NCBI RefSeq assembly: GCF_004403985.1
Contig: NZ_SOHL01000013.1
Span: 248,001 to 312,000 of the forward strand
Direction of reading: 5' to 3'
Length of the DNA: 64,000 nt
Origin: Cryobacterium gelidum
GTDB lineage: Bacteria; Actinomycetota; Actinomycetes; Actinomycetales; Microbacteriaceae
Position 1 is the first letter of the stretch. Each line of letters opens with the position of its first letter. The translations under genes were made by a program, and so were the position numbers. The notes beneath the pieces are model-generated. The model was not told the origin of the DNA. It was given only the letters and a program-made list of their open reading frames with translations, and did not search any database. Below, piece by piece: positions 2,342 to 59,952 of the stretch.

Positions 2342-3452
2342 TCACATCGGTGGCCTTGACCGAAAGCCAGACCGTCGAGCCCACCTGCAGGCCGAGGTCG
2401 GCAACCGCGGCCGGGGTCAGTTCCGCGATGACCTCCGGGTCACCGCTCGTACGCAGGCGCACTCCGCCGCTGCCCGGCTCAATGCCTCTCACCCGGGCCG
2501 ACCAGACGTTGCGGGGGCTGGCGTGCCGGGGCTGTTCCGTGTGCACGACAACGGAGGCCGGGCGAAAGACGGCCGCGGCGGGCGCGGGGGCTTCTGCGCC
2601 GGGGGTTGCGGGCGACAGGGCTGCAGCATCCGCTGGGCGCACCCGGAACGTGCGGCCGTCTGGGGCGACGACCGCGCCGTTCTGCGCGGTGCCCACCACG
2701 AGATTCACGCCGGCGAGGGCCGCGACGAAGGGGTTCTGCGGGGCCGCGAGCACCGCTGCGGTCGTGCCTTCGTCGATGAGCGTGCCGTGGTGCAGCACGG
2801 CGACGCGGTGGGCGAGAACGACGGCGTCGACGATGTCATGGGTGACGATGATGGCGCTGGTGCCGGTTTCGGCAAGCTGCTCGCGGATGAGTTGACGGAT
2901 GAACGGCGCTGTTTCCGCGTCGAGAGCGGCCATCGGCTCGTCGAGCAGGAGCACGCGCGGGCCGGCCGCGAGGGCGCGGGCGAGGGCGACGCGCTGCTGC
3001 TGCCCGCCGGAGAGGGCGCCCGGCAGGCTGCTGCCGAGGCCGGCCAGGCCGACCCGGTCGAGCCAGCGGTCGGCCTGCACCCGGGCCGGGGCGGCGTTCA
3101 GTCGCGCTTCGCCGAACCGGAGCGCGAAGGCCACGTTGGCGCGGGCGCTCAGGTGCGGAAAGAGCAGGGGCTCTTGTCCGAGCAGACCGATAGCACGATT
3201 CTCGGGTGCCACGAGCCGGCCGGGCGCGGTGAGGGTCGCACCATCGAGGGTGACGGTTCCGGTATCGGGGGTGGCCAGTCCCGCGAGCAGGTCGAGCACG
3301 GTCGACTTGCCCGAGCCGTTCGGGCCAAGGAGGGCCAGCACTTCGCCGGGCGCGAGCGTGAGTTGCACGTCGAGGGTGAACCCGCCTCGGGTGAGCTGTA
3401 GGTTCGCGGCGAGAAGTGCGGTGACGACGTCTCGGCCGAGGGTGGCGGTCAT
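2325..3452 (-). CDS. modC: Molybdate ABC transporter ATPase ModC
   Basis: 375 aa ATP-binding subunit of the molybdate importer. Walker A GPNGSGKST lies at residues 43-51, the ABC signature LSGGQQQRVALARAL near 145 and Walker B VLLLDEPMAALD near 165. A C-terminal TOBE/Mop-type domain (about 295-370) ends in VKATDVSAYRR. The C-terminal domain distinguishes it from generic ABC ATPases and can bind oxyanion for feedback control. The ATG overlaps the modB stop by 4 nt (ATGA), giving translational coupling. It is last in the HTH-Mop, modA, modB, modC order. Confidence 0.95.
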   Translation of the reverse strand: MTATLGRDVVTALLAANLQLTRGGFTLDVQLTLAPGEVLALLGPNGSGKSTVLDLLAGLATPDTGTVTLDGATLTAPGRLVAPENRAIGLLGQEPLLFPHLSARANVAFALRFGEARLNAAPARVQADRWLDRVGLAGLGSSLPGALSGGQQQRVALARALAAGPRVLLLDEPMAALDAETAPFIRQLIREQLAETGTSAIIVTHDIVDAVVLAHRVAVLHHGTLIDEGTTAAVLAAPQNPFVAALAGVNLVVGTAQNGAVVAPDGRTFRVRPADAAALSPATPGAEAPAPAAAVFRPASVVVHTEQPRHASPRNVWSARVRGIEPGSGGVRLRTSGDPEVIAELTPAAVADLGLQVGSTVWLSVKATDVSAYRR

Positions 3453-4231
3453 GAGAGTACGCTCGCCCGGCGGGTTCCGACCAGCACGAGGATGATCACG
3501 GCGACCGCGATCAACAGCAGCGACAAGGCGACAGCCTGGTCGGTCGTCACGCCCGAGCCGTTGAAGGCGGTGTAGATGGCAAGGGGCATGGTGCGGGTGA
3601 CTCCGACCTGGTTGCCGGCGAAGAGGGCGGTCGCACCGAATTCGCCGAGCGCGCGGGCGAAGCTGAGAACGGTGCCGGCGAGAAGTCCGGGGCCGACGAG
3701 CGGCAGCGTGATGCGCGCGAAGACCGTGCCGCGGCCGGCGCCGAGGGTCGCGGCGACACGCTCGTAGCGGATGCCGGCGGTGCGCAGCGCCCCCTCGACC
3801 GCGATCACGAGAAACGGCAGGGCCACGAAGGTTTGCGCAATGACGACCGCCGCGGTCGTGAATGGAATGCGCAGTCCGGCAAGTTCGAGGGTGTTGCCGA
3901 GTACGCCGCCGCGTCCGAGCAGGGAGAGCAGTGCGATACCGCCGACGAGCGGCGGCAGCACGAGCGGCACGGTGACGAGCGCCCGCAGCAGACCGGCTGC
4001 ACGCGGCTTCGACCGCGCGATGACGACGGCGAGCGGCACGCCGAGCAGCAGGCAGAGCAGCGTCGAAACGGATGCCGTCACCAGCGACAAACCCAGCGGC
4101 TGCAGGGCCTCGGGTGAAAGCAGCAGGGCGGGCAGGGCGGCCCAGTCGACCTTGAGCAGGAGACCGGCGAGCGGCAGCACGAGCAGGGCCAGGCCGATGC
4201 TCGCGGGCAGATAGAGGAGGCGCGGAATCAC
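3449..4231 (-). CDS. modB: Molybdate ABC transporter permease ModB
   Basis: 260 aa inner-membrane permease with five to six hydrophobic segments. The cytoplasmic EAA loop (about 155-185, LGAGRGTVFARITLPL) couples to the ATPase. It follows the SLVTASVSTLLCLLLGVPLA pattern of ModB/CysW permeases. It lies between modA and modC, overlapping modC by 4 nt. A 137-bp gap separates it from modA, and this gap carries a palindromic repeat that could alter expression of the distal genes. Confidence 0.94.
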   Translation of the reverse strand: MIPRLLYLPASIGLALLVLPLAGLLLKVDWAALPALLLSPEALQPLGLSLVTASVSTLLCLLLGVPLAVVIARSKPRAAGLLRALVTVPLVLPPLVGGIALLSLLGRGGVLGNTLELAGLRIPFTTAAVVIAQTFVALPFLVIAVEGALRTAGIRYERVAATLGAGRGTVFARITLPLVGPGLLAGTVLSFARALGEFGATALFAGNQVGVTRTMPLAIYTAFNGSGVTTDQAVALSLLLIAVAVIILVLVGTRRASVLS

Positions 4232-4254
4232 GGGCGCAGGCCGCGCGGGCCGCG

Positions 4255-4292
4255 CCGGGCGCAGGTTCGATGGCCGGGCGCAGGCTCTATCG
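4255..4292. repeat. Tandem 19-bp imperfect repeat in the modA-modB gap
   Basis: CCGGGCGCAGGTTCGATGG (4255-4273) is followed directly by CCGGGCGCAGGCTCTATCG (4274-4292), which differ at only a few bases. The second copy is the left part of the 47-bp palindromic element. Confidence 0.7.
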
Positions 4293-4320
4293 TGCGCCCA
4301 GCGGGCAACGCTGCGCCCGG
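4274..4320. repeat. 47-bp palindromic intergenic repeat, copy 1
   Basis: The element starts CCGGGCGCA and ends TGCGCCCGG, a perfect 9-bp inverted repeat, and contains TCTATCGTGCGCCC. A second copy of the same length lies at 50694-50740 with identical ends and the same internal 14-mer but a different 12-bp spacer. This REP-like element sits between modA and modB. Confidence 0.8.
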
Positions 4321-4346
4321 GCGGGTTCCCGAGCTCTGCGGGGTGT

Positions 4347-4379
4347 TCACGGGGCGGTCACGGGGCGGTCACGGGGCAA
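4347..4379. repeat. 11-bp tandem repeat over the modA stop codon
   Basis: TCACGGGGCGG occurs at 4347-4357 and 4358-4368, with a partial third copy (TCACGGGGCAA) from 4369. The third copy supplies the modA TGA. Duplication at the 3' end of modA is likely. Confidence 0.7.
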
Positions 4380-5154
4380 GAAAACCGTGGGCGGCGAGCA
4401 CGGCCTGGCCGGCCGGCGAGAGCACCAGGTCGACGAAGGCCTGCGCGGCCTCGGCGTGCGCGCTGCCGGCCACGACCGCGATCGGGTAGTGCCCGACGAC
4501 TTCGCTGGCTCCGGCCGGGGTCACGCCGTCGATGCGGTCGGGGTTGGCGGCGACGTCCGTGGCGTAGACGAGGCCGGCATCCGCTTCGCCGCTGGCGATC
4601 TTGGTGACCACGGCCGTCACATTCTGTTCCTCGCTCGCGGGGCTGAGAGTGACGCCGGCGTTGGACAGCAGGGCAGCGGATGCCGCACCGCACGGCACCT
4701 GCGCCGCGCACAGCACGGTGATCACGCCGGCCCGGGCGAGATCTGCGAGGTTTTCGATGCGCAGCGGGTTGCCGGGGGCGACCGCGATACGAAGCGTGTT
4801 GCCGGCGAACAGGGTGGCCGGACCGACCAGTGCGTCGTCGGCGAGCGGCTGCATGTTCTTCTGGTCGGCACTGGCGAACACGTCGGCGGGGGCGCCGGCC
4901 GCGATCTGGGTGGCCAGGGTGGAGGATCCGTCGTAGCTGACCTGCACGTCCACGGCCGGATTCTCGCGTTCGAGCAGGGCGGCCATCTCGTCGAAGGCTC
5001 CGGTGAGAGAGGCGGCAGCATAGACGCTGAGGGTCTGGGGCTCGAGCCCCGTAGCGGTCGGCTCAACGGTGTCCGCGGCGTTCGACGGCGCACAGCCGGT
5101 GAGGGCCAGGGCGAGCACAGCCAGAACGACCAGGGCCTGCGGGAGGCGGCTCAC
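4369..5154 (-). CDS. modA: Molybdate-binding lipoprotein ModA
   Basis: 261 aa substrate-binding protein of the molybdate transporter. A lipoprotein signal peptide (residues 1-21) ends in LALTGC, so Cys21 would be lipidated. The mature part has LSVYAAASLTGAFDEMA, SYDGSSTL and ADVFASAD, the ModA ligand-site segments. The GTG at 5154 was chosen because it puts the signal peptide at the N-terminus and overlaps the preceding stop as GTGA. The longer upstream frame is translation of the preceding gene out of phase. Confidence 0.93.
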   Translation of the reverse strand: MSRLPQALVVLAVLALALTGCAPSNAADTVEPTATGLEPQTLSVYAAASLTGAFDEMAALLERENPAVDVQVSYDGSSTLATQIAAGAPADVFASADQKNMQPLADDALVGPATLFAGNTLRIAVAPGNPLRIENLADLARAGVITVLCAAQVPCGAASAALLSNAGVTLSPASEEQNVTAVVTKIASGEADAGLVYATDVAANPDRIDGVTPAGASEVVGHYPIAVVAGSAHAEAAQAFVDLVLSPAGQAVLAAHGFLAP

Positions 5155-5555
5155 GGCATCCGTCCCGGAGTTTCGACGATCACATTGGTGGCCTTGATCA
5201 CGGCGACGCTGAGCGAGCCGATAGCGAGGCCGAGTTCGCGCACGGCCTCGCTCGACATGAGCGAGACCACGCGGTGCGGGCCGCACTGCAGTTCGACCTG
5301 GGCCATGACGGTGTCCATGGTGATGGCGGTGACGATGCCAACGAATCGATTGCGGGCGCTGCGGCCAACACTCGACGGGTCGGTCGGGGCGTTCGCCTGC
5401 TCGACCGCGAAGGCGGCGAGCGCGGCTCCGTCAACCGCGAGGCGACCGGAGGCGTCGGTAGTCGCGGCAAGGCGACCACCGTCGACCCAGCGTCGCACGG
5501 TGTCGTCGCTGACACCGAGCAGCTCGGCGGCCTCACTGATCCGATATTGCGTCAT
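5151..5555 (-). CDS. HTH-Mop (TOBE) molybdenum-responsive regulator
   Basis: 134 aa. Residues 1-30 (YRISEAAELLGVSDDTVRRW) are a MerR/excisionase-type helix-turn-helix. Residues 68-130 are a Mop/TOBE domain (NRFVGIVTAITMDTVMAQVE ... VIKATNVIVE) that binds molybdate or tungstate. This is a compact equivalent of ModE and the first gene of the mod operon, so autogenous molybdate control of modABC is likely. No clear ribosome-binding site is seen; TATTCT lies 7 nt before the ATG, which suggests a leaderless transcript. Confidence 0.88.
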   Translation of the reverse strand: MTQYRISEAAELLGVSDDTVRRWVDGGRLAATTDASGRLAVDGAALAAFAVEQANAPTDPSSVGRSARNRFVGIVTAITMDTVMAQVELQCGPHRVVSLMSSEAVRELGLAIGSLSVAVIKATNVIVETPGRMP

Positions 5556-5603
5556 AAACAGCAGAATAGCACCGCATCTGCGGGGGTGATCGCTCGGCTG
5601 TTT

Positions 5604-5647
5604 CGGAAACCTCGCGGGGCTGGCCCGGAAACCTCGCGGGGCTGGCC
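5604..5647. repeat. Perfect 22-bp tandem duplication
   Basis: CGGAAACCTCGCGGGGCTGG plus CC (22 bp) occurs at 5604-5625 and again at 5626-5647 with no mismatch. It lies in the divergent region between the mod operon and moeZ. Confidence 0.85.
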
Positions 5648-5655
5648 CGCCCTGC

Positions 5656-5748
5656 GCATAACTCCTGCAAATTGCCCCTCCCCGCTGCTGTGTTCCGCTC
5701 AGCTGGGGGCATAGCGACGGCGGCGGCGACAGATTGCAGGAGTTATGC
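5656..5748. repeat. 15-bp perfect inverted repeat with 63-bp spacer
   Basis: GCATAACTCCTGCAA (5656-5670) and TTGCAGGAGTTATGC (5734-5748) are exact reverse complements. The spacer shows no gene. It may be a REP-type element or a pair of regulator sites for the divergent mod/moeZ promoters. Confidence 0.75.
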
Positions 5749-5807
5749 CGCCGGGCAGGTCGGTTCGGCGGCAGTCTCCCGCCGAGCTGGTGGCCGCGAG
5801 GCCCGGC

Positions 5808-5820
5808 AACGCTTAGCGTT
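5808..5820. promoter_or_regulatory. Palindrome and probable leaderless promoter of moeZ
   Basis: AACGC-TTA-GCGTT is a perfect inverted repeat. TAGCGT (5814-5819) fits a TANNNT -10 box, and the ATG of moeZ follows 6 nt later at 5826 with no ribosome-binding site. An operator over the -10 of a leaderless gene is the simplest reading. Confidence 0.4.
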
Positions 5821-5825
5821 AAGCC

Positions 5826-7127
5826 ATGGCTATTCCTCCCCTCGTCGAGCCCATTGATCAGCTCACCGCCTCCGAATCCGTGCGTACCGCCCGCCAGCGT
5901 CGCCTCCCCCAGCTCAATGAACTCGGCCAGCGCCGCCTCGCCAACGCCCGGGTGCTCGTACTCGGCGCCGGCGGGCTCGGTTCCCCCGCCCTGCTCTACC
6001 TCGCAGCGGCCGGCGTGGGCACCATCGGCATCGTCGACGATGACGACGTGGAACCGAGCAACCTGCAGCGCCAGATCGCCCATGGGCAAGCGGATGTCGG
6101 CCATCCCAAGGTCGACAGCGCCGCCGAGCGCATCGCCGAGATCGCCCCGGAAACCACGGTCATCCGGCACGCTGAACGACTGGTGGCGAGCAACGCGGCC
6201 GAGATCATCGGCGGCTACGACATTGTCATCGACGGCACCGACAATTTTCCGACCCGGTTCCTCGTGAACGACACCTGCGCGCGACTGGGGCTGCCGCTGG
6301 TGTGGGCATCCGTTCTGCGCTTCGACGCCCAGCTCTCGGTGTTCTGGGCCACTCCGCCGGCCGGTAGCGGGATCACCGGCGTGCACCTGCGCGACCTGTT
6401 TCCGACGCCGCCGGCCGAGGGCGAGGTACCCAACTGCGCCGATGCCGGTGTGCTCGGCGCGCTGTGTGGCCAGGTCGGGTCGCTCATGGCGACCGAAACC
6501 ATCAAGCTCATCACCGGAATCGGCTCGCCGCTGATCGGACGGGTGCTCGTGATCGACGCGCTGTCGGGCCGGTTCAATGAGATTCCGCTGCTCGGAACCG
6601 GCATTGCCGCCGAACCGACCGCCGCCGAGCTCGCCGCCGAGCGTTCTGCCGAACTCGCCCAGGCGGCCAGGGAGAGCACCCCGGAGGTCTCGAGCGTCGA
6701 ACTCGCCGGGCGCCTCGCCGCCCAGAGCGCCGGCACCGACAGCTTTCTGGTCCTGGACGTGCGCGAGCCGAACGAATACGCCGAAAGCTCGATTCCGACG
6801 GCTCAACTGCTGCCCATCGGTGAGCTCCTCAGCGACGGCGTGCTCTCGGACAGTGGCCGCGCCGCGCTGCCCCAAAACACCCCGCTGATCGTGCATTGCC
6901 ACGCCGGCGGCCGGGCCGCCCGGGCCGCGAACGCGCTGCGCGAGGCGGGATTCACCGATGTTTCGGTGCTGACCGGCGGAATCCTCGCTTGGGATGACCT
7001 CGTCACGGCCGGGCGTGCTCCCGGACTCGGCAGCAGATGGCCGTCGCCCGAGCCCGCCCTGACCGCGCCAGACGCGTCGACCCGCGATGACGCCGGCAGT
7101 GCCAGCCCGTCCGACAGCCTGGTCTAG
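5826..7127 (+). CDS. moeZ: MoeB/MoeZ-type adenylyltransferase-sulfurtransferase
   Basis: 433 aa. Residues 20-265 are a ThiF/MoeB/UBA1 domain with the nucleotide loop GAGGLGSPALLYLAAAGVG and DDDDVEPSNLQRQ. Residues 295-400 are a rhodanese domain with the cysteine loop IVHCHAGGRAAR. It activates the C-terminal glycine of MoaD by adenylation and passes sulfur to it for molybdopterin synthesis. In actinobacteria such proteins can also serve other sulfur carriers. The CxxC zinc pairs of E. coli MoeB are absent, as is common in the actinobacterial fusion type. It heads the moeZ-moeA-moaC-mobA-moaD operon. Confidence 0.93.
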   Translation: MAIPPLVEPIDQLTASESVRTARQRRLPQLNELGQRRLANARVLVLGAGGLGSPALLYLAAAGVGTIGIVDDDDVEPSNLQRQIAHGQADVGHPKVDSAAERIAEIAPETTVIRHAERLVASNAAEIIGGYDIVIDGTDNFPTRFLVNDTCARLGLPLVWASVLRFDAQLSVFWATPPAGSGITGVHLRDLFPTPPAEGEVPNCADAGVLGALCGQVGSLMATETIKLITGIGSPLIGRVLVIDALSGRFNEIPLLGTGIAAEPTAAELAAERSAELAQAARESTPEVSSVELAGRLAAQSAGTDSFLVLDVREPNEYAESSIPTAQLLPIGELLSDGVLSDSGRAALPQNTPLIVHCHAGGRAARAANALREAGFTDVSVLTGGILAWDDLVTAGRAPGLGSRWPSPEPALTAPDASTRDDAGSASPSDSLV

Positions 7128-7130
7128 CCG

Positions 7131-8483
7131 GTGACCGACACCGAACGACCCGATGCCGGCGCGCGTGACACTGCGCCAGGCGATCACGCGAACCACTCGC
7201 ACACGCGGACGGATGCCTGCGCGCCCGCCGCATCCGCGCGCACCGTTGCCGAGCAACTCGCGATCGTGCTCGCCAGCGTCGCTCCCCTGTCGCCCGTGCG
7301 CGTGGAGCTCGATGCGGCCCGCGGTCTGGTGCTGGCCGAAGATGTGCTCACCGTGACCGATACGCCTCCCTTCGACAATTCCGCGATGGACGGCTACGCC
7401 GTCATCCGCTCTGATCTGCTCAGCGCCTCGCCCCAGAACCCGATCACCCTGCCCGTCATCGCCGACCTCGCCGCCGGCACCGCGGAGAACCCGCGCCTCC
7501 TGCCCGGGCAGGTCGCGCGCATCATGACGGGCGCGCCCATTCCCGACGGAGCGGACGCCGTCGTGCCGATCGAGGACACCGACCAGGGCATCGAACGAGT
7601 CGCCATCGTGCGGGCGCCCGGCGCCGCGGCGCACGTGCGCCGGGCCGGCGAAGACGCCCACGCCGGCGACCGGGTGCTGCGCGCGGGAAGTGTGCTCTGG
7701 CCCACCCGGGTCGCCGCAGCGGCGAGCGCCGGAACCAGCTCGGTGCTGGTACACCCCGCTCCGCGCGTGGCCGTCATCTCGACCGGAAGCGAACTGGTCA
7801 CGCCCGGCAGCCCGACCCGTCGCGGCCAGATTCCCGACTCCAATTCCTTTCTGCTTTCGGCGGCCGTCGCCGAGGCCGGCGGCATAGCCGTGCGGATCGG
7901 CGCCGTACCGGACGACGACGACGTGCTGCGCGCGCTGTTGGCCGAACTGGCCGGCTCGGTCGACGTGATCGTGCTCTCCGGCGGCGTGAGCGTCGGCGCG
8001 TACGACGTGGTCAAGGCCGTGTTGAAACCGCTCGGCACCGTGGACTTCGGGCCGGTCAAGATGCAGCCCGGCAAGCCGCAGGGTTTCGGGCGCTGGCCCG
8101 CCACCGAACAAGCAGCCGGACCGCTCATCTTCGCCCTGCCCGGCAACCCGGTCAGCGCCTACGTGTCCTTCGAGGTGTTCGTACGGCCCGCACTCCAGCG
8201 CCTGCTCGGCCGGCCGATCCTGCACCGGCGCACCGTCACGGCGACCGTCGTCGACGGCTGGCGCTCCCCACCCGGACGCGCCCAGTACATGCCCGTCATT
8301 GTCACGAACCGCACCGACGGCACCGAAAACGGCACCCGGACCGAGGCGCGCCCAGCTTCCCGGGGCGGTTCGGGCTCGCACCTCGTCGCCGGCCTGGCGC
8401 AGGCATCTGGACTCGCCATCGTGCCCGAGGATGCCACTCACATTCGCGGCGGCGACGTCATCACTGTCATGCTGACATCATGA
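7131..8483 (+). CDS. moeA: Molybdopterin molybdotransferase MoeA
   Basis: 450 aa, somewhat longer than E. coli MoeA. MoeA inserts molybdate into adenylated molybdopterin. Recognised segments are [10 protein letters not shown] (about 83-92), the [20 protein letters not shown] stretch, [15 protein letters not shown] and the [13 protein letters not shown] motif. The GTG start lies 3 nt after the moeZ stop, and the stop overlaps the moaC ATG (ATGA). The N-terminal 30 residues are poorly conserved, so a start slightly further in is possible. Confidence 0.94.
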
Positions 8484-8995
8484 CGCACACCACCGACACG
8501 GCCGGGGCGGCCGTACCCGCCCAGCTTTTCACCCACCTCGACTCGGCAGGGCAAGCCCGTATGGTCGACGTGACCAACAAGGTCCCGACCGTGCGCAGCG
8601 CCACCGCCGCCGGTTTCGTGCGCTGCGGGACGACGGTGATCGCGGCCCTCCGCGACGGCACCGCGCCCAAGGGCGACGTGCTCGCCGTGGCCCGCATCGC
8701 GGGGATCCAGGGTGCCAAGAAGACCGCCGACCTGCTTCCGCTGGCCCACGTGATCGGCGTGCACGGCGCCGTCGTCGACCTCACGGTCGAGGATGACGGC
8801 GTGCGCATCACCGCCACGGTGCGCACCGCCGACCGCACCGGGGTCGAAATGGAGGCGTTCACCGCCGTCTCGGTCGCCGCCCTCGCCGTCGTCGATATGG
8901 TCAAGGGCCTCGACAAATCCGTCACGATCGAGAACGTGCGCCTGCTCGCCAAGAGTGGCGGCAAGAGCGGCGACTGGCTGCGCGCCGAAATCTAA
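8480..8995 (+). CDS. moaC: Cyclic pyranopterin monophosphate synthase MoaC
   Basis: 171 aa. MoaC converts the MoaA product to cyclic pyranopterin monophosphate. The family signature [16 protein letters not shown] occurs near residues 28-43, and [20 protein letters not shown] followed by KGLDKSV carries the conserved basic residues. The ATG overlaps the moeA stop. The partner enzyme gene moaA is absent from this window and must lie elsewhere if the pathway is complete. Confidence 0.95.
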
Positions 8996-8999
8996 GCGG

Positions 9000-9722
9000 A
9001 TGCTGCCGGTTGACCTCATCGTGCTCGCGGGCGGCCGCGGCAGCCGTCTCGGCGGCGTGCTCAAACCCGCGGTCGAGGTGGCCGGGCGTACCCTACTCTC
9101 GCGCGTTCTCGATGCCCGCCCGGTCGCTCGGCACGCCGTCGTGGTCGGCCCGCCAGCCGCCCAGCCCGCGGCAGTCCCACCGGTCACCGCGCCCGTCGCG
9201 CACACCCCGCTGATCTGGGCGCTCGAAGACCCACCGTTCGGCGGGCCGGTGGCCGGCCTCGCCGCCGGCCTCGCCGCGCTCGACGCCCACGCAGCCCGTG
9301 CAACGAACGCACCGCTCGACACGAACGAAGACGGCCCTGAACCACCCGTCGGCTGGCTGCTGGTGCTCGCCTGCGATCTGCCCTGGGGAGCGGATGCCGC
9401 ACGCCTGCTGGTCGCTGCAGCATCCGCTCTCGAGAAAACGGATGACCGGCAGGACGGCGTGCACCTCGTCGACAGCAGCGGCCACGCGCAGTGGCTCGCC
9501 GCGATCTATCGGGCACCCGCTTTGCGCGCGGCCGTGGCCCGTCTCGGCGACCGCGTCGACGGCGCCAGCATGCGACAACTGCTCGCCGGTTTACAGCTCG
9601 ACGGGCTGCAAGACGAAGCCGGAGCCGGTATCGACGTGGACACGTGGCAGGATGTTAAGAGTAGTACCGTGCGGTTGACCGACGCATCCGGACCCGACCA
9701 TTCAGCCCGACCAGAGGAGTGA
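9000..9722 (+). CDS. mobA: Molybdenum cofactor guanylyltransferase MobA-like
   Basis: 240 aa NTP-transferase of the MobA family. It would attach GMP to the molybdenum cofactor to give the guanine dinucleotide form needed by NarG. LAGGRGSRLGGVLKP at residues 9-23 is the nucleotide-binding loop (the canonical form is LAGGxSxRMGxDK). DLPW (about 127-130) supplies a metal-binding aspartate. The ATG at 9000 follows the moaC stop by 4 nt. The middle (about 90-120) is a poorly conserved loop. Confidence 0.87.
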   Translation: MLPVDLIVLAGGRGSRLGGVLKPAVEVAGRTLLSRVLDARPVARHAVVVGPPAAQPAAVPPVTAPVAHTPLIWALEDPPFGGPVAGLAAGLAALDAHAARATNAPLDTNEDGPEPPVGWLLVLACDLPWGADAARLLVAAASALEKTDDRQDGVHLVDSSGHAQWLAAIYRAPALRAAVARLGDRVDGASMRQLLAGLQLDGLQDEAGAGIDVDTWQDVKSSTVRLTDASGPDHSARPEE

Positions 9723-9728
9723 ACCCGA

Positions 9729-10001
9729 ATGAGCTCTGCACCGCTGCCTCCCGAAGCGCTCGACGACTGGCTCACCGCCCTCGCCGACCGACTGCAGCTC
9801 AACTCCGAAGACGTGCCCGTGGGCGGCCTGCTCGACGTGGCCCGCGACGTGGCCCACAACGTGGCGCGCCCGGCCGCGCCGCTCAGCACCTTTCTGATCG
9901 GACTCGCCGCCGCGAAGAATGGTGGAACCACCGCCGATATCGAAGCGGCCTGCGCCACCGCGACCGAACTCGCCCTCGCCTGGACCCCCGGCACACGCTG
10001 A
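9729..10001 (+). CDS. DUF6457-type small protein of the Moco operon
   Basis: 90 aa, starting LPPEALDDWLTALADRLQL and carrying VGGLLDVARDVAHNVARPAAPLSTFL. This is the pattern of a small actinobacterial family often found next to or fused with MobA and labelled DUF6457. Its function is not established. GGAG lies 6 nt before the ATG. The stop overlaps the moaD ATG. The context suggests an accessory role in cofactor maturation. Confidence 0.72.
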   Translation: MSSAPLPPEALDDWLTALADRLQLNSEDVPVGGLLDVARDVAHNVARPAAPLSTFLIGLAAAKNGGTTADIEAACATATELALAWTPGTR

Positions 10002-50769: not shown

Positions 50770-53016
50770 TCAGGGGGTCGGCAGCGCTCGGAACCCACGC
50801 AGGCGCAGGCTGTTGGTCACCACGAAGACAGACGACAGGGCCATCGCGGCGCCCGCGATGAGTGGATTGAGCAGTCCGGCCATCGCGAGCGGAATCGCCG
50901 CGACGTTGTAGGCGAAGGCCCAGAACAGGTTGGCCTTGATCGTCGTCAGGGTGCGGCGAGACAGCCGGATGGCATCCGCTGCTGCGAGCAAATCGCTCCG
51001 CATGAGGGTGAGGTCGCTCGCTTCGATGGCCACGTCGGTACCCGTACCCATGGCAATGCCCAGGTCGGCCGTGGCGAGAGCGACCGCATCGTTCACGCCG
51101 TCCCCGACCATGGCGACCACGCGCCCCTGCGACTGCAGCTCGCGAATAACCCGAGCCTTGCCTTCGGGTAGCACCCCCGCGGTGACGTCGGTGATGCCGA
51201 CCTCGGCCGCGACACTCTCCGCCACGGCGAAATTGTCGCCGGTGACGAGCATGGGCGTCAGGCCCATCGCACGAAACTGAGCGATCGCACCGGCACTCGT
51301 GGGCTTGATCGTGTCGCCAACCGTGATTATTCCGCGCACCTTGCCCTCCCAGGCGACCATCACGGCCGTCCTGCCGCGCGTCTCGGCGGTGCTCATCATG
51401 GCCTGCAACTCGGTCGGCACGGTCAGGCTCCACCGCTCGATGAGCCACGCCGGTCGACCGACCAGAATCTGTCGCCCACCCACCGTCGCCTGCACTCCGA
51501 GCCCCTGCTCCGATAGAAACGCCGACGCGTCGGGCAACGCTCCCAGCCGGTCGCGGGCACCCGCGGTGATGGCGCGCGCGATCGGGTGCTCCGACCCGCT
51601 CTCTGCCGCCCCCGCCAGCAGCAGGAGCTCGTTTTCATCGCCACACTCGTGCACGTCGACGTTCGAGAGCGTCATACGCCCGGTGGTGACCGTGCCGGTC
51701 TTGTCGAGAACGATCGTGTCGACGCGGCGCGTGGATTCCAGAACCTGCGGTCCCTTGATCAGAATGCCGAGTTGGGCACCACGCCCGGTCCCCACCAGCA
51801 ACGCGGTCGGCGTGGCCAGCCCGAGCGCGCATGGGCAGGCAATGATAAGCGTCGCCACGGCTGCGGTGAACGCCATCGCAGCGCCCGCGCCGACCAGCAG
51901 CCAGCCGACCAGAGTGGCCAGGGCCAGCCCGATCACGATCGGCACGAACACGCCGGAGACCCGATCGGCCAGGCGCTGCACCTCGGCCTTGCCGGTCTGC
52001 GCCTGCTCCACCAGCCGGCCGATGTGGGCCAGCTCGGTATCGGCGCCGACCTGCGTCGCCCGCACCACGAGGCGCCCGCCGGAATTCAGGGTGGCGCCCA
52101 CAACGCTGTCGCCGGGCCCAACCTCGATCGGCACCGATTCGCCGGTGAGCAGGCTCGCATCGATAGCGGATGACCCATCAACGATCACCCCGTCGGTCGC
52201 GACCTTTTCCCCCGGTCGCACGACAAACTGGTCGCCGGCCACGAGCAGCGCGGTGCTGATGCGACTCTCCACGCCGTCTCGCAACAGCGTGGTCTCCTTC
52301 GCGCCGAGTTCGAGCAGTGCCTGCAGTGCCGCGCCGGAGTTGCGCTTGGCCCGCGCTTCCGCGTAGCGACCGGCCAGAATAAACACAGTGACAGCGGATG
52401 CCACCTCGAGATAGATCTCGTCGGTGCCGCTTCCCGGGGTGGCCGAGAAGGTGAAGCTCATGGTCATGCCGGCCATTCCGGCCATGCCGAAGAACAGGGC
52501 GTAGAGCGACCAGCCGAGGGCGGCGAGCACGCCGACGCTGACCAGGGTGTCCATGGTCGCGGCTCCGTGGCGGGCGTTCACCCAGGCTGCGCGGTGGAAT
52601 GGCCAGGCACCCCAGGTGGCGACGGGGGCCGCGAGGGTCAGGGCCAGCCACTGCCAGTTGTCGAACTGCAGCACGGGAATCATCGACAGGGCGGCGACCG
52701 GCAGGGTCAGCGCGGCTGACAACAGCAGACGTTGGCGCAGGGCCGACACCTCCAGCTCGGCGGCGTCGGGCACGCTGGAGTTCGGCGGAGTCGGCAGCGG
52801 CTGTACGGCCGTGTAACCGGTGGCTTCGATGGTCTTGATGGCATCGTCGACACTCGTGCCGGCGGGCACGAAGACGCTCGCCTTTTCGGTGGCGTAGTTG
52901 ACCGTGGCGGCGACCCCGGGCATCCGGTTGAGTTTCTTCTCGATGCGGGCCGCACAGGAGGTGCAGGTCATCCCCCCGACGAGGAGATCGACCTGCTGGC
53001 CGAGGTCTGAGGTCAT
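50770..53016 (-). CDS. copA: Copper-exporting P1B-type ATPase CopA
   Basis: 748 aa. An N-terminal heavy-metal domain has GMTCTSCAARIEK (Cys18, Cys21). Membrane helices follow with the ion-site motif ACPCALGLATPTAL near 400, the phosphorylation motif VLDKTGTVTTG, SGSEHPIARA with the P1B-specific HP dipeptide, and GDGVNDAVALATADLGIAMG. The usual proline of NDAPALA is valine here. The last helices carry NVAAIPLAMAG and MALSSVFVVTNSLRLR, which fits Cu(I) specificity. copZ ends where it starts (4-nt junction). Confidence 0.94.
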   Translation of the reverse strand: MTSDLGQQVDLLVGGMTCTSCAARIEKKLNRMPGVAATVNYATEKASVFVPAGTSVDDAIKTIEATGYTAVQPLPTPPNSSVPDAAELEVSALRQRLLLSAALTLPVAALSMIPVLQFDNWQWLALTLAAPVATWGAWPFHRAAWVNARHGAATMDTLVSVGVLAALGWSLYALFFGMAGMAGMTMSFTFSATPGSGTDEIYLEVASAVTVFILAGRYAEARAKRNSGAALQALLELGAKETTLLRDGVESRISTALLVAGDQFVVRPGEKVATDGVIVDGSSAIDASLLTGESVPIEVGPGDSVVGATLNSGGRLVVRATQVGADTELAHIGRLVEQAQTGKAEVQRLADRVSGVFVPIVIGLALATLVGWLLVGAGAAMAFTAAVATLIIACPCALGLATPTALLVGTGRGAQLGILIKGPQVLESTRRVDTIVLDKTGTVTTGRMTLSNVDVHECGDENELLLLAGAAESGSEHPIARAITAGARDRLGALPDASAFLSEQGLGVQATVGGRQILVGRPAWLIERWSLTVPTELQAMMSTAETRGRTAVMVAWEGKVRGIITVGDTIKPTSAGAIAQFRAMGLTPMLVTGDNFAVAESVAAEVGITDVTAGVLPEGKARVIRELQSQGRVVAMVGDGVNDAVALATADLGIAMGTGTDVAIEASDLTLMRSDLLAAADAIRLSRRTLTTIKANLFWAFAYNVAAIPLAMAGLLNPLIAGAAMALSSVFVVTNSLRLRGFRALPTP

Positions 53017-53352: not shown

Positions 53353-53694
53353 ATGAGCGACGCAGAGGACATTGTCATGCACGAGTCAGACCCGGCCGAG
53401 ACCCACGACGGCCCACACGGCTACATCTCGAACAAGGACGCCTACCTGAAACGCCTGCGCCGCATCGAGGGCCAAGCCCGCGGGCTGCAGGGCATGGTCA
53501 CCGACGACAAGTACTGCATCGACATTTTGACCCAGATCTCAGCCATGACGAGCGCTCTCGAATCGGTTGCTCTCGGCCTGCTCGACGACCACCTCAACCA
53601 CTGCGTGTTACACGCGGCCATGGCCGGTGGCACCGAAGCCGAGGCCAAGCTGCAGGAGGCATCGGCGGCCATCGCCCGGCTGGTGCGGTCCTGA
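53353..53694 (+). CDS. csoR: Copper-sensing repressor CsoR
   Basis: 113 aa. Cu(I) ligands Cys55, His80 and Cys84 are all present (KYCIDILTQISAM ... DDHLNHC), in contrast to the CstR-like paralogue at 48.3 kb. LKRLRRIEGQARGLQGMV is the DNA-contact helix. GGGGGA precedes the ATG. Copper binding releases it from the paired operators upstream and induces copZA and itself. Confidence 0.94.
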   Translation: MSDAEDIVMHESDPAETHDGPHGYISNKDAYLKRLRRIEGQARGLQGMVTDDKYCIDILTQISAMTSALESVALGLLDDHLNHCVLHAAMAGGTEAEAKLQEASAAIARLVRS

Positions 53695-53784: not shown

Positions 53785-54471
53785 ATGAACCCGCCGCACA
53801 GCGCGCCCCCGACGACAATGGAGGCGACCGCTGCCGACGCCATTCGCGTCTTCATTCTCGACGACCATGAACTGGTGCGCCGCGGCCTGCGTGAACTTCT
53901 CGAGGGTGAAGGTTTCAACGTCGTCGCCGACAGCGGCCTCGCAGCGGAAGCCACCGTCATGATTTTGCAGCTTCGCCCCGATGTGGCCATTCTCGACGCC
54001 CGCCTGCCCGACGGCACGGGCATCGAGGTCTGCCGCGACGTACGTTCGGTCAACCCCACCCAGCAGTGCCTCATCCTCACCAGCTACGACGACGAGCAGG
54101 CGCTGCGCGGTGCGGTGCTGGCGGGTGCGGCCGGCTACGTGTTGAAGGAGATTCGCAGTACCGACCTGCTCGGCAAGATCCAGCGCGCGGCCGCTGGGGA
54201 ATCCCTGTTCGATCCGACGCTCAAGGCGAGCATCATCGCCGGGCTGGCCGATCCGCAAGACGCCCGGCTCGCCTCACTCACCGCCCAGGAACGCAAAGTT
54301 CTCGACCTGATCGGCGACGGCCTGACCAACCGTGAAATCGGTAAGACCATGTTTCTGGCCGAGAAAACGGTCAAGAACTACGTGTCGTCGATGCTGGCGA
54401 AGCTGGATTTTCAGCGCCGAACCCAGGCTGCCGTGTACGTCGCGAAACGTGGAGACGAACACCCACGGTAA
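53785..54471 (+). CDS. DosR/DevR-like LuxR-family response regulator
   Basis: 228 aa. The receiver domain (20-135) has acidic Asp26/Asp27, phospho-acceptor Asp71 in AILDARLPDGTG, and Lys near 123 (YVLKEI). The NarL/LuxR helix-turn-helix (165-220) reads LTAQERKVLDLIGDGLTNRE and FLAEKTVKNYVSSMLAKL, nearly the same as mycobacterial DosR. It would bind the DosR-type boxes in this region and switch on the hypoxia/NO genes. GGAAGGA precedes the ATG. Its last 101 bp overlap the kinase gene on the other strand. Confidence 0.92.
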   Translation: MNPPHSAPPTTMEATAADAIRVFILDDHELVRRGLRELLEGEGFNVVADSGLAAEATVMILQLRPDVAILDARLPDGTGIEVCRDVRSVNPTQQCLILTSYDDEQALRGAVLAGAAGYVLKEIRSTDLLGKIQRAAAGESLFDPTLKASIIAGLADPQDARLASLTAQERKVLDLIGDGLTNREIGKTMFLAEKTVKNYVSSMLAKLDFQRRTQAAVYVAKRGDEHPR

Positions 54472-56152
54472 CCTCCGGCACCGGCACCGACCAGCGCAAC
54501 CGCGTTCCCTCGCCCAAAACGCTGCGCACCGAGAACTTTCCGCCGAGCAGCGTCGCGCGCTCCTTGAGGTTGTCGAGGCCGCTGCGCCGGATGGGTTTAA
54601 TGAACCCGCAGCCGTTGTCGGCGATGACAAGTTTGATGCGATCAGTGTCGGCGTCGACCGAGATGTCGATCGCGCTCGCCTGGGAATGCCGCGCAGCATT
54701 GCTGAGCCCCTCCGAGATGACCGCGAGCAGGCTGCTGCTCAGGTCATCAGCGAGCGGCGCGTCGATCGGCCCTGACAAGCGGATGCGCGGCGCATACGAC
54801 AGACTCGCCGCGCCCTCCTTGATCACGGTCAGAATGCGGCTGCTGAGCGTGCCGGTGTCCTGCGCCATGCCGCGCAGCGAATAGATCGTGTCGCGCAACT
54901 CGCGGATGGTGTCATCGAGCTCGGTGGTGACGGCGTTGATGCGGTCGAGCGCTACGGAATCGTTGGTGAACCGTCGCAAACTCTGTATGCTCAGCCCGGC
55001 GGCGAATAGCCGCTGAATGACCAGGTCGTGCAGGTCGCGGGCGATGCGGTCGCGGTCACCGAGCACGGCCTGCTCTTCGCGCATGCGATGCACCGAGGCC
55101 AGTTCCAGGGCGAGCGACACCTGGGTACCGAATACCGCGCTCATCTCCACATCGGTGAGGCTGTATCCAGTGGATGCGGGTGCGCGCGACAGCAAGATGA
55201 CTCCCTGCCCGTCGCCGGCCGGGCCCAGGGCAGCAATGAGCGTGGAACCCAACTGCGACCACTGGGCAGCCGAGCCGGGCGCGGTATCCGCGCTCTGCAG
55301 GGGCGGGCGGGCGAGTGTGACGGACCGGCCGGTAGCCTGCAGCTCGCGCAGAACGCCGGGCTGCAGCAGTACGGTCGCGCCGACCAGCGCCGCGGCGGTC
55401 GTGGCAGCTGCAGTGCCAGCAATGCCAGCAGTGCTGGTGCCGGCCGCGGCCGCACAGTAGAGGCTGTCGTCGGTGGGAAACCCGATCACGGCCAGTTCGG
55501 CGCCCGACGCCGCGAGTACCCGCTGAACGACGAGATTGAGACCGTCGCCGTCCCCGTCGACCGGTCGCAGCAGGTCGCGGCCCATCGCAGCGACCGCTTC
55601 GAGCCAACCTGAGCGGGCACGGGACTCATCGTAGAGACGAGCGTTCTCGATCGTGACGCCGGCAGCCGCGGCGAGCGCGACGGCCAGTTCCTGGTCTTCG
55701 TCCGTGAAGTCGCCGCCACCTTCTTTCTCGGTGAGATAAAGGTTGCCGAAGACCGTGTCGCGCACCCGCACCGGAACGCCGAGAAACGACTTCATCGGCA
55801 GGTGATGTGCGGGAAAGCCGAAGGAGTCCGGGTGATCGTGCAGATCGTGCAGGCGAAGGGGATGGGGTTCGCGAATGAGCAGGCCGAGCACGCCGTGCCC
55901 GACCGGCAGGGCGCCGATCTGACGAATCGTCTCCTGGTCAAAGCCCACGGTGACGAAGTGGCTGAGTGCCTGGTCGGGGCCGATCACGCCGAGGGCGCCG
56001 AAACGGGCCTGCACGAGCTGGCAGGCCGCCGTGACGACGCGTTCGAGCACCGCTTCGAGGCTGAGGTCTTCAGCCACCGATACGACAGCGTCGAGCAGGC
56101 CGCGCATGCGTTCCTGGGTGAGGGCAAGTTCGGTGGCGGTCTGATCCGTCAT
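54371..56152 (-). CDS. DosS/DevS-like GAF sensor histidine kinase
   Basis: 593 aa soluble kinase. GAF-A covers about 25-175 with FGFPAHHLPMKSFLGVPVRV, a histidine pair (116/117) in the loop that in DosS carries the heme ligand (from memory of the family). GAF-B covers about 190-375. The dimerisation/phospho-acceptor site is DRDRIARDLHDLVIQRLFAAG and the ATPase domain carries EGLSNAARHS, ADNGCGF and GLDNLKERATLLGG. Redox, oxygen or NO sensing is likely. The C-terminal about 30 residues after RWSVPVPE are non-conserved and lie antisense to the response regulator gene. Confidence 0.91.
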   Translation of the reverse strand: MTDQTATELALTQERMRGLLDAVVSVAEDLSLEAVLERVVTAACQLVQARFGALGVIGPDQALSHFVTVGFDQETIRQIGALPVGHGVLGLLIREPHPLRLHDLHDHPDSFGFPAHHLPMKSFLGVPVRVRDTVFGNLYLTEKEGGGDFTDEDQELAVALAAAAGVTIENARLYDESRARSGWLEAVAAMGRDLLRPVDGDGDGLNLVVQRVLAASGAELAVIGFPTDDSLYCAAAAGTSTAGIAGTAAATTAAALVGATVLLQPGVLRELQATGRSVTLARPPLQSADTAPGSAAQWSQLGSTLIAALGPAGDGQGVILLSRAPASTGYSLTDVEMSAVFGTQVSLALELASVHRMREEQAVLGDRDRIARDLHDLVIQRLFAAGLSIQSLRRFTNDSVALDRINAVTTELDDTIRELRDTIYSLRGMAQDTGTLSSRILTVIKEGAASLSYAPRIRLSGPIDAPLADDLSSSLLAVISEGLSNAARHSQASAIDISVDADTDRIKLVIADNGCGFIKPIRRSGLDNLKERATLLGGKFSVRSVLGEGTRLRWSVPVPEVTVGVRLHVSRRTRQPGFGAENPASPASTTRSS

Positions 56153-56218: not shown

Positions 56219-57073
56219 CTACTTCCGGCTGGTTCTGGTGACAATCGTCGGGCAGGTGATGTGCAGTAGCACCTCGTGGCTGACCGAACCCATCAGCAGG
56301 CGCTGCAGCGAGCCCCGGCCCCGGCTGCCGACCACCAGCATCTGGGCATGCTGGGCCGCGGCGACGAGCGCGCGGGCTGGCGATTCGTCGGTCTCGAGAA
56401 CCTGATGCACCACGAGGTCGGGGTAACGCGCGGTGAGACCGGCCACGGATTGGGCGAGCACGACGCGTTCTTCGTCCATGCGCTCGGTCACGGCGTCGGC
56501 CGGAATTCTGCGCAGCACACGACGGTTCGGCAGGTGTACCGCGTAAAGGGCGTACAAATCCTGGCCGGTGCGGTCGGCCTCGGCGGCGGCGAACGTCACT
56601 GCGGCGATCGAATCGGCCGACCCGTCGACGCCGACGTAGATGCCGGAGCGCACGGTTTCGGGCAACGAGGGGATAACGGCGACGGGACAGGCAGCCAGCG
56701 CGGCAATCTGCAGGCTCACGCTGCCAAACAATTCGCCCTCAACCCGGCCCTTGCGGTCTGTGCCCACAACGATGAGGTCGGCGTCTTTGGACAGCTCGCT
56801 GAGCACGCGCGGGGCGCTGCCGGTGCGAAGGTCGGTGCGGGTGGCCACGGCGGGGGCCAGAGTTGCGGCGCGGGCTCCGGCCTCGGTGAGCAGTTTCTTC
56901 TCGGCGTCGAGAATGGAGTCGTAGTAGCCGTAGCCGTCGGCCAGCCAGGTTTCGTACACGGTGTGCACGAGGGTCACCGCGCTTTTGACGCTGTCGGCCC
57001 GGGCCATGGCCCAGGCGAGGGCGGTCTCGCCGGCAGCCGATTCGTCGATGCCGACCACAATCATCCGGTTCAT
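56219..57073 (-). CDS. Dual-domain universal stress protein
   Basis: 284 aa with two tandem USP domains (about 1-140 and 145-284). MIVVGIDESAAGETALAWAM opens the first, SGIYVGVDGSADSIAAVTFA the second. VVGSRGRGSLQRLLMGSVSH carries the full ATP-binding motif, while the first domain has a partial one (VVGTDRKGRVEGELFGSVS). This is the type induced by DosR in mycobacteria. The ATG at 57073 gives the conserved N-terminus. A DosR-type box lies 114 bp upstream. Confidence 0.93.
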   Translation of the reverse strand: MNRMIVVGIDESAAGETALAWAMARADSVKSAVTLVHTVYETWLADGYGYYDSILDAEKKLLTEAGARAATLAPAVATRTDLRTGSAPRVLSELSKDADLIVVGTDRKGRVEGELFGSVSLQIAALAACPVAVIPSLPETVRSGIYVGVDGSADSIAAVTFAAAEADRTGQDLYALYAVHLPNRRVLRRIPADAVTERMDEERVVLAQSVAGLTARYPDLVVHQVLETDESPARALVAAAQHAQMLVVGSRGRGSLQRLLMGSVSHEVLLHITCPTIVTRTSRK

Positions 57074-57186
57074 TGCTCTACCTCGATCTGAATCAGTGGT
57101 CGCAGCAGTGGAGTCCCCCGCTACGGGTGAGGAGCTGCTGCCCCATCGCCTTGACGCCATCCTGTCAGCCGACAGCGCGAACGCCT

Positions 57187-58991: not shown

Positions 58992-59091
58992 CTCCGGCGC
59001 GCCGGCCGCGGCTAGCGTGAAGAACAATCGTTACTGACGGTCGCGACATTTCCACTCGCTGCCCGGCACCACAGAAGGGATGGAGCTCATG

Positions 59092-59952
59092 ATGCACACG
59101 CTCACACGGAGCCAGACGGTAGTCGCCTGGGATGGGTCGGAACCGGCCAGGGCTGCCCTGGCTTGGTCGCTCGCCCGTGCCGCCGGCGGCGACTTCACCC
59201 TGGTGCGTGTGCTTGACCGTACGGTATCGACGGCCGACTACTTCACGGAGGAATCCACCACCGTGCGTGCTCGCGAGGTCTTGAAGGATGATGCCGACCG
59301 GGTGAGCGCTCAGTATCCGACTCTCACCGTGCACGCCGATCTGCGCTCCGGCGACCCGATCACCGAACTGCGGGCGTTGAGCGCACCTGACACCCTGGTC
59401 GTGGTCGGAACGCACCGCCGCCGCGGCTCTACCCTGCGTTACGAATGGTCGATGGGGGCCAGGCTGGCCGGTTCGGCCAACGGACCGATCGCGATCATTC
59501 CGGAGAGTGATGACACACACCACACCGGTATCGTGGTCGGCGTCGACGGTTCGGCGGCGTCGAACGCTGCCGTGGACTTCGCCGCTGCCGAGGCGGATCG
59601 CACCGGTCAGGAACTGCACGCGATCCACGCCTGGCAGGAACCGCTGGTCTGGCGCGATACGACCGAACCCGACGGACGCTTTCTGCAGACGCTCGAGACC
59701 TCGCATCGGCACGTCCTCGACCAGTCGCTGCTCGCCATCTCCCGGCGCTATCCAGCGCTCGACATTCGCGCCTCGCTCGTGCGCGGCGCCCCGCAATCGG
59801 CGCTGCTCGACGCCGCCCGTGGGGCAGCGCTGCTCGTCGTCGGCGACCACGGGCTCACCGCGGTGTCGAAAGTGCTGCTCGGTTCGGTGAGCCACTCGAT
59901 CGTGCTGAACCTTCAGTCGCCGATGGTGGTCATCCCGGCCCCGTCCGACTAA
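59092..59952 (+). CDS. Dual-domain universal stress protein, second copy
   Basis: 286 aa with two USP domains (about 1-135 and 145-285). TVVAWDGSEPARAALAWSLA opens the first and GIVVGVDGSAASNAAVDFAA the second. GDHGLTAVSKVLLGSVSHS holds an ATP-binding-like motif in domain 2; domain 1 is degenerate (GTHRRRGSTLRYEWS). The ATG at 59092 is preferred to 59080 or 59089 because GGAG lies 6 nt before it. Paralogous to the USP at 56.2 kb. Confidence 0.92.
   Translation: MHTLTRSQTVVAWDGSEPARAALAWSLARAAGGDFTLVRVLDRTVSTADYFTEESTTVRAREVLKDDADRVSAQYPTLTVHADLRSGDPITELRALSAPDTLVVVGTHRRRGSTLRYEWSMGARLAGSANGPIAIIPESDDTHHTGIVVGVDGSAASNAAVDFAAAEADRTGQELHAIHAWQEPLVWRDTTEPDGRFLQTLETSHRHVLDQSLLAISRRYPALDIRASLVRGAPQSALLDAARGAALLVVGDHGLTAVSKVLLGSVSHSIVLNLQSPMVVIPAPSD

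Follow-up and report, generated by a model that had tools for sequence, protein, structure and literature searches.

The window analysed here, a stretch of 64,000 nucleotides from Cryobacterium gelidum, contains a response regulator (RR) gene and a sensor kinase gene which lie on opposite strands and meet tail to tail, each stop codon being located inside the partner gene. The features of the locus, in coordinates of the window, are the following:

53353..53694, plus strand: CsoR/RicR-type metal-sensing repressor, directly upstream of the regulator (PF02583; NCBIfam RicR with 150.9 bits, below the cut-off of 175)
53785..54471, plus strand: DosR/DevR-like RR of 228 aa, receiver and GerE/LuxR HTH (Pfam PF00072 and PF00196; DevR 3c3w)
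54371..56152, minus strand: DosS/DevS-like sensor kinase of 593 aa with GAF, HisKA_3 and HATPase_c domains
54371..54471, both genes: tail-to-tail coding overlap of 101 bp, phase RR 123 : kinase 132
54434..54469, minus strand: kinase tail residues 562-573 (TVGVRLHVSRRT), facing RR codons 217-228, kinase frame dominant
54370..54432, plus strand: RR codons 196-216 (HTH end), regulator frame dominant; the opposite strand codes for the last 20 residues and the stop of the kinase
54371..54373, minus strand: kinase stop TGA, made by the RR codons GTC-AAG (Val196-Lys197) of the recognition helix

According to Pfam, the kinase features HisKA_3 (PF07730, residues 367-428) and HATPase_c (PF02518, residues 474-559). 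As to the second GAF domain of DevS/DosT-type kinases, Pfam matches to GAF are confined to residues 30-170, and the region of about 180-350 has no Pfam assignment. The GAF domain matches 2vzw (E 2.6e-51), which we take to be the DosT structure, and 2y8h of DevS (E 1.6e-48). Residue H117, invariant in 17 species, is aligned with the His of the DevS motif PYHPPM, presumably the heme ligand His149, and the DevS/DosT-type feature of a GAF domain with a putative heme-ligand His is present in the kinase. The RR consists of a receiver and a GerE domain with a KTVKN recognition helix of the DosR/DevR type; its best solved relative is DevR 3c3w (E 1.1e-58), and K194, K197 and N198, invariant in the 17 species, match what we assume to be the DosR contact residues. 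Among the NCBIfam matches listed (25 of 91 for the RR), no model reached its cut-off for the kinase or the RR. The kinase is a probable oxygen- or redox-type sensor and the regulator its probable partner.

In the neighbourhood, an ORF at 50770-53016 on the strand opposite to the CsoR/RicR-type repressor reads like a copper-type P-type ATPase. Genes of the universal-stress-protein type lie beyond the kinase, at 56219-57160 (Usp domain, Pfam) and at 59080-59952 (by eye). Universal stress protein genes are also found in mycobacterial dormancy regions.

An earlier note on this DNA had described a tail-to-tail overlap of 101 bp between DosR- and DosS-like genes and a kinase frame that continues for about 30 codons after its conserved end. 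Both descriptions hold, since the ORFs share exactly 54371-54471 and HATPase_c ends at residue 559 of 593; 32 of the 34 residues beyond it lie wholly within the overlap. In this phase, the third base of the RR codons stands opposite the second kinase base and the second RR base opposite the kinase wobble base. Read on the opposite strand, the TCA within GTC AAG, the Val-Lys of the KTVKN helix, gives the kinase TGA. As the kinase stop is thus formed by two codons of the DNA-recognition helix, the length of the overlap is set by the regulator.

At E <= 1e-60, whole-genome searches found the kinase in 46 of the 57 Cryobacterium genomes; of 398 sampled genomes of the family, 110 had a match, 8 of these being Cryobacterium. 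A script determined the gene arrangement for 41 of the 46 and for 24 genomes of the family from other genera, the latter being the best-scoring of 102 genomes with a match and no random draw. The five Cryobacterium genomes left out of the script (G005, G017, G039, G040, G041) carry kinase and regulator in tandem on one strand, as judged from coordinates (5/5). The core set comprises the window and 16 Cryobacterium loci from other assemblies (L005-L020), i.e., 17 species, with kinase identities to that of the window of 83-89% in the best segment. The same convergent pair with an identical 101-bp overlap is kept in all 16 of these loci, which answers the suggestion of the earlier note to look for the overlap in relatives. 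It also occurs in two of the eight next-closest loci (G025 and G032). Four further relatives are convergent without a long overlap, three with 4 bp (G012, G054, G023) and one with a gap of 21 bp (G021), and in G022 and G046 the kinase is found without an adjacent regulator. At a kinase identity of about 40%, all 40 loci (16 in the genus, 24 outside) are tandem, in agreement with the expectation that cognate genes of this kind usually are. In a kinase tree of 40 rows, 13 of them tandem, the tandem and convergent groups stand apart (100/100) and G025/G032 join G022/G046 (100/99). The 101-bp state needs two label changes on this tree when the pair lacking an RR is counted apart, the forks between the convergent subclades being drawn open. 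The kinase tail is short or different in the overlap-free relatives G021, G012, G054 and G023 and is therefore not essential to such kinases. As a side observation, G046 contains a paralogous convergent kinase/regulator pair (L087, about 3001-9782) with a 74-bp overlap in the same phase, in which two codons for Val-Thr supply the kinase stop; another kinase paralogue lies close by. The tandem kinases of L061 and L093 gave odd tail read-outs with an internal stop in the script, which is likely an alignment-offset effect.

The evidence that bears most strongly on selection is the distribution of changes over codon positions, counted by parsimony in the 17 species on a tree from non-overlapping codons, which assumes the parsimony tree and even silent rates. 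RR codons 20-195 follow the usual pattern with 66/33/404 changes at positions 1/2/3, whereas RR codons 217-228 show 0/13/5 changes. This position-2 excess relative to codons 20-195 is significant (Fisher P 2e-11), and 13 of 18 changes at position 2 has a P of 8.5e-4 with all positions equally free. When 12-codon segments with starts from 8 to 217 were scanned, position-2 changes were at least as numerous as position-3 changes only in those starting at 216 and 217. The alleles point the same way: of the 13 variant alleles in RR codons 217-228, ten alter the regulator but not the kinase and three the kinase but not the regulator, and each of the eight in codons 225-228 affects only the RR. The opposite holds for RR codons 196-216, where 17 of 19 variant alleles alter the kinase but leave the regulator as it is. 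A control clade of 12 species with tandem genes shows no such reversal; its changes number 2/0/11 over the final 10 codons and 3/0/32 over the HTH stretch.

Silent sites were further compared with amino-acid-matched expectations for position-3 changes. Over RR codons 197-228 (24 invariant codons) 27 changes were seen vs 51 expected (P 2e-4), and over codons 197-216 22 vs 36 (P 0.012); the upstream codons 163-195 gave 49 vs 57 (P 0.15) and the HTH stretch of the tandem control 32 vs 36 (P 0.27). In the last 7 usable codons of the tandem control, 8 silent changes were seen vs 15.5 expected (P 0.03), so that part of the silent-site reduction near the 3' end may be general. In view of this reduction and of the P of 0.012, the reading of the distal tail as clearly selected was dropped. 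According to a review of antisense proteins, silent rates differ between sites; this caution applies to the silent-site counts and less to the codon-position reversal. Judged by these counts, the overlap is split into a kinase-ruled part (RR codons 217-228) and a regulator-ruled part (RR codons 196-216). Selection appears to be visible in both frames inside the overlap, and for the kinase frame in the distal part it is only suggestive. We conclude that kinase residues 562-573 have probably been selected as protein, while residues 574-593 would be under selection at most weakly.

The simplest alternative is a passive run-on, in which the kinase stop was lost, the antisense frame of a GC-rich RR gene was open by default, and a tail came to be translated but irrelevant, the regulator alone fixing both DNA and length. 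Composition lends itself to this, for the same antisense phase is open up to the V-K codons in 33 of 53 RR genes without the overlap (four of 57 genes were set aside because no V-K motif was found, three having I-K and the frame of L062 being too short), and it is likewise open in 61% of recodings of the window's RR tail with randomly drawn synonymous codons. As the antisense frame is often open by composition, the long frame alone is unremarkable. The site of the kinase stop reads GTC or GTT in 17/17 species and GTC (7) or GTG (5) in the 12 species of the tandem control clade. When neutral simulations were run with only the RR constrained, an overlap of exactly 101 bp survived at all 17 tips in 2.1% (kappa 1.5) or 6.8% (kappa 3) of the runs, depending on the transition bias, so that the conserved length is only mild evidence and was rejected as proof of selection. 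A passive run-on also fits the distal half of the tail. Nevertheless, it does not account for RR codons 217-228, in which changes pile up at position 2 while positions 1 and 3 hardly vary; the tandem control shows nothing of the kind. For these proximal 12 codons a passive origin is accordingly disfavoured, and as an account of the whole overlap we regard it as improbable. It is the codon-position pattern, and not the conservation of length, that provides strong evidence for a tail that appears to be selected.

The earlier note had instead proposed an effect at the RNA level, by which the two facing transcripts would disturb each other or form a duplex in the overlap and thereby limit the kinase/regulator ratio; such an effect could coexist with a coding explanation. 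The convergent geometry is favourable to it, as is the finding that no intrinsic-terminator-like site lies in the overlap (one match in 3.9 kb, at 53836, with a mean of 1.7 in shuffles), for which reason the transcripts may overlap regardless of any ORF overlap. However, the constraint is not uniform but follows the codons of the kinase frame, and this three-base periodicity near the 3' end of the RR gene favours a protein tail over an RNA element, although neither excludes the other. Moreover, the relatives with a 4-bp overlap or a 21-bp gap and the two without an adjacent regulator indicate that such a pair can do without an ORF overlap of 101 nt. Transcriptional proposals are thus not needed for these data, and we consider an RNA device unlikely. 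Still less can be said for a sequencing or assembly error that removed an upstream kinase stop, which the earlier note had placed near 54440: an identical length in 16/16 close loci from other assemblies, and again in G025 and G032, rules it out for practical purposes. Seen as a whole, the interpretation given in the earlier note is partly supported.

Some lineages illustrate how such an overlap may come apart. G025, G032, G022 and G046 possess another DosR-like regulator elsewhere (L129-L132), 76-81% identical to that of the window, and no kinase match was detected within the stretches of roughly 6.6 kb around these genes. From the downstream DNA, the L129-L132 regulators apparently adjoin a universal stress protein gene. 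At the kinase locus, G025 and G032 have kept a regulator which has diverged to 63-66% identity and carries VTG and VRS in place of VKN in the recognition helix. No regulator was detected at the kinase locus of G022 or G046. The best local alignment of the G022 DNA with that of G032 and G025 extends from the kinase core until 9 nt short of the former stop of the kinase; the G022 kinase itself has a new TAG 9 codons ahead of that old stop. By this alignment, the G022 regulator is shown to be gone except for what seems to be about the overlap stretch. The kinase frame of G046 is open and stops 7 codons earlier; the tail it encodes is similar in type (RPGPSP...GFG..NP), but the tail DNA gave no alignment with that of G032 in the local alignment used. 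Between G025 and G032, kinase positions 1/2/3 differ by 2/3/5 over the first 17 codons of the tail (differences silent in 4 codons and not in 3) and by 2/5/1 over the distal 16 (silent in 0 and not in 6), which suggests the same proximal-versus-distal tendency in small numbers.

Taken together, a true dual-coding convergent overlap with a selected kinase tail is very probably the best explanation. It would have started in a Cryobacterium lineage whose kinase and regulator genes faced each other, the kinase stop then being moved into the partner gene, so that the kinase came to read into the regulator 3' end and to terminate at the Val-Lys codons GTC AAG. The first approximately 12 added residues (consensus TVGVRLHVSQRT) would later have come under purifying selection as protein, with the consequence that the kinase frame fixes the DNA there and the last residues of the regulator drift. 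The remaining 20 tail residues would be mostly dictated by the regulator HTH and either tolerated or weakly selected. The tail is presumably translated and would act as a C-terminal appendage of the catalytic domain. That it tunes kinase activity or docking to the regulator is a guess, conceivable but rather doubtful. The AlphaFold model of the kinase (17 close sequences; mean pLDDT 40.4, about 28 in the tail) is too poor for tail structure, and that of the RR is poor, too (mean pLDDT 48.3). Bolder and far less probable is a genetic lock, in which the selected tail and the C-terminal region of the RR share the same DNA so that neither could change alone, the tail would contact the regulator, and the 101-nt sense-antisense stretch would tune the mRNA ratio; the lock would have been opened in the G022/G046 lineage, with its DosR-like regulator elsewhere and none at the kinase locus. 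Long bacterial overlaps are often suspected to be annotation errors, and the present one is readable in 17 species with a hand-over of constraint between the frames. This hand-over, the overlap-free relatives and the lineage in which the partner is lost except for about the overlap make the locus a handy natural experiment on the origin, maintenance and loss of overlaps. As a practical warning, kinase C termini in Cryobacterium should not be trimmed to the catalytic domain.

Regarding known systems, the closest counterparts in domain make-up are DevS/DosT-DevR (DosR) of Mycobacterium tuberculosis and OsdK-OsdR of Streptomyces coelicolor. With the former, the positions which we take to be the heme-pocket His and the DNA-reading residues are aligned as well. 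The pair osdR-osdK is described as an operon (PMC5069765); the Cryobacterium genes, by contrast, converge and overlap. A literature search on Cryobacterium with DosR found nothing, and no convergent overlapping kinase/regulator pair was recognised from titles and abstract starts among the matches listed. Conserved convergent overlaps have reportedly been studied for purifying and directional selection by Rogozin and colleagues in 2002. In the present overlap, the dominant frame switches partway, and it joins a kinase gene with that of the regulator which is likely its cognate. Phase 123:132 is given as the commonest for convergent overlaps under about 50 bp in PMC2174442, and the Cryobacterium overlap has the same phase but a length of 101 bp. 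A statistical study states that the phases of E. coli convergent overlaps agree with a stop-codon-mutation model. In Palleja et al. 2008 (PMC2478687), 54 of 178 long convergent overlaps are judged possibly real, most of them conserved only in very close species, and no co-directional or divergent overlap above 60 bp is judged real. The Cryobacterium pair resembles these convergent overlaps in its opposite strands, shared 3' ends, length of more than 60 bp and moved stop codon, and differs in being kept in 17 species and two in a second subclade, with codon-position support for both frames. The Cryobacterium pair is accordingly a well-supported further case among the known long convergent overlaps, and an unusually well-documented one.
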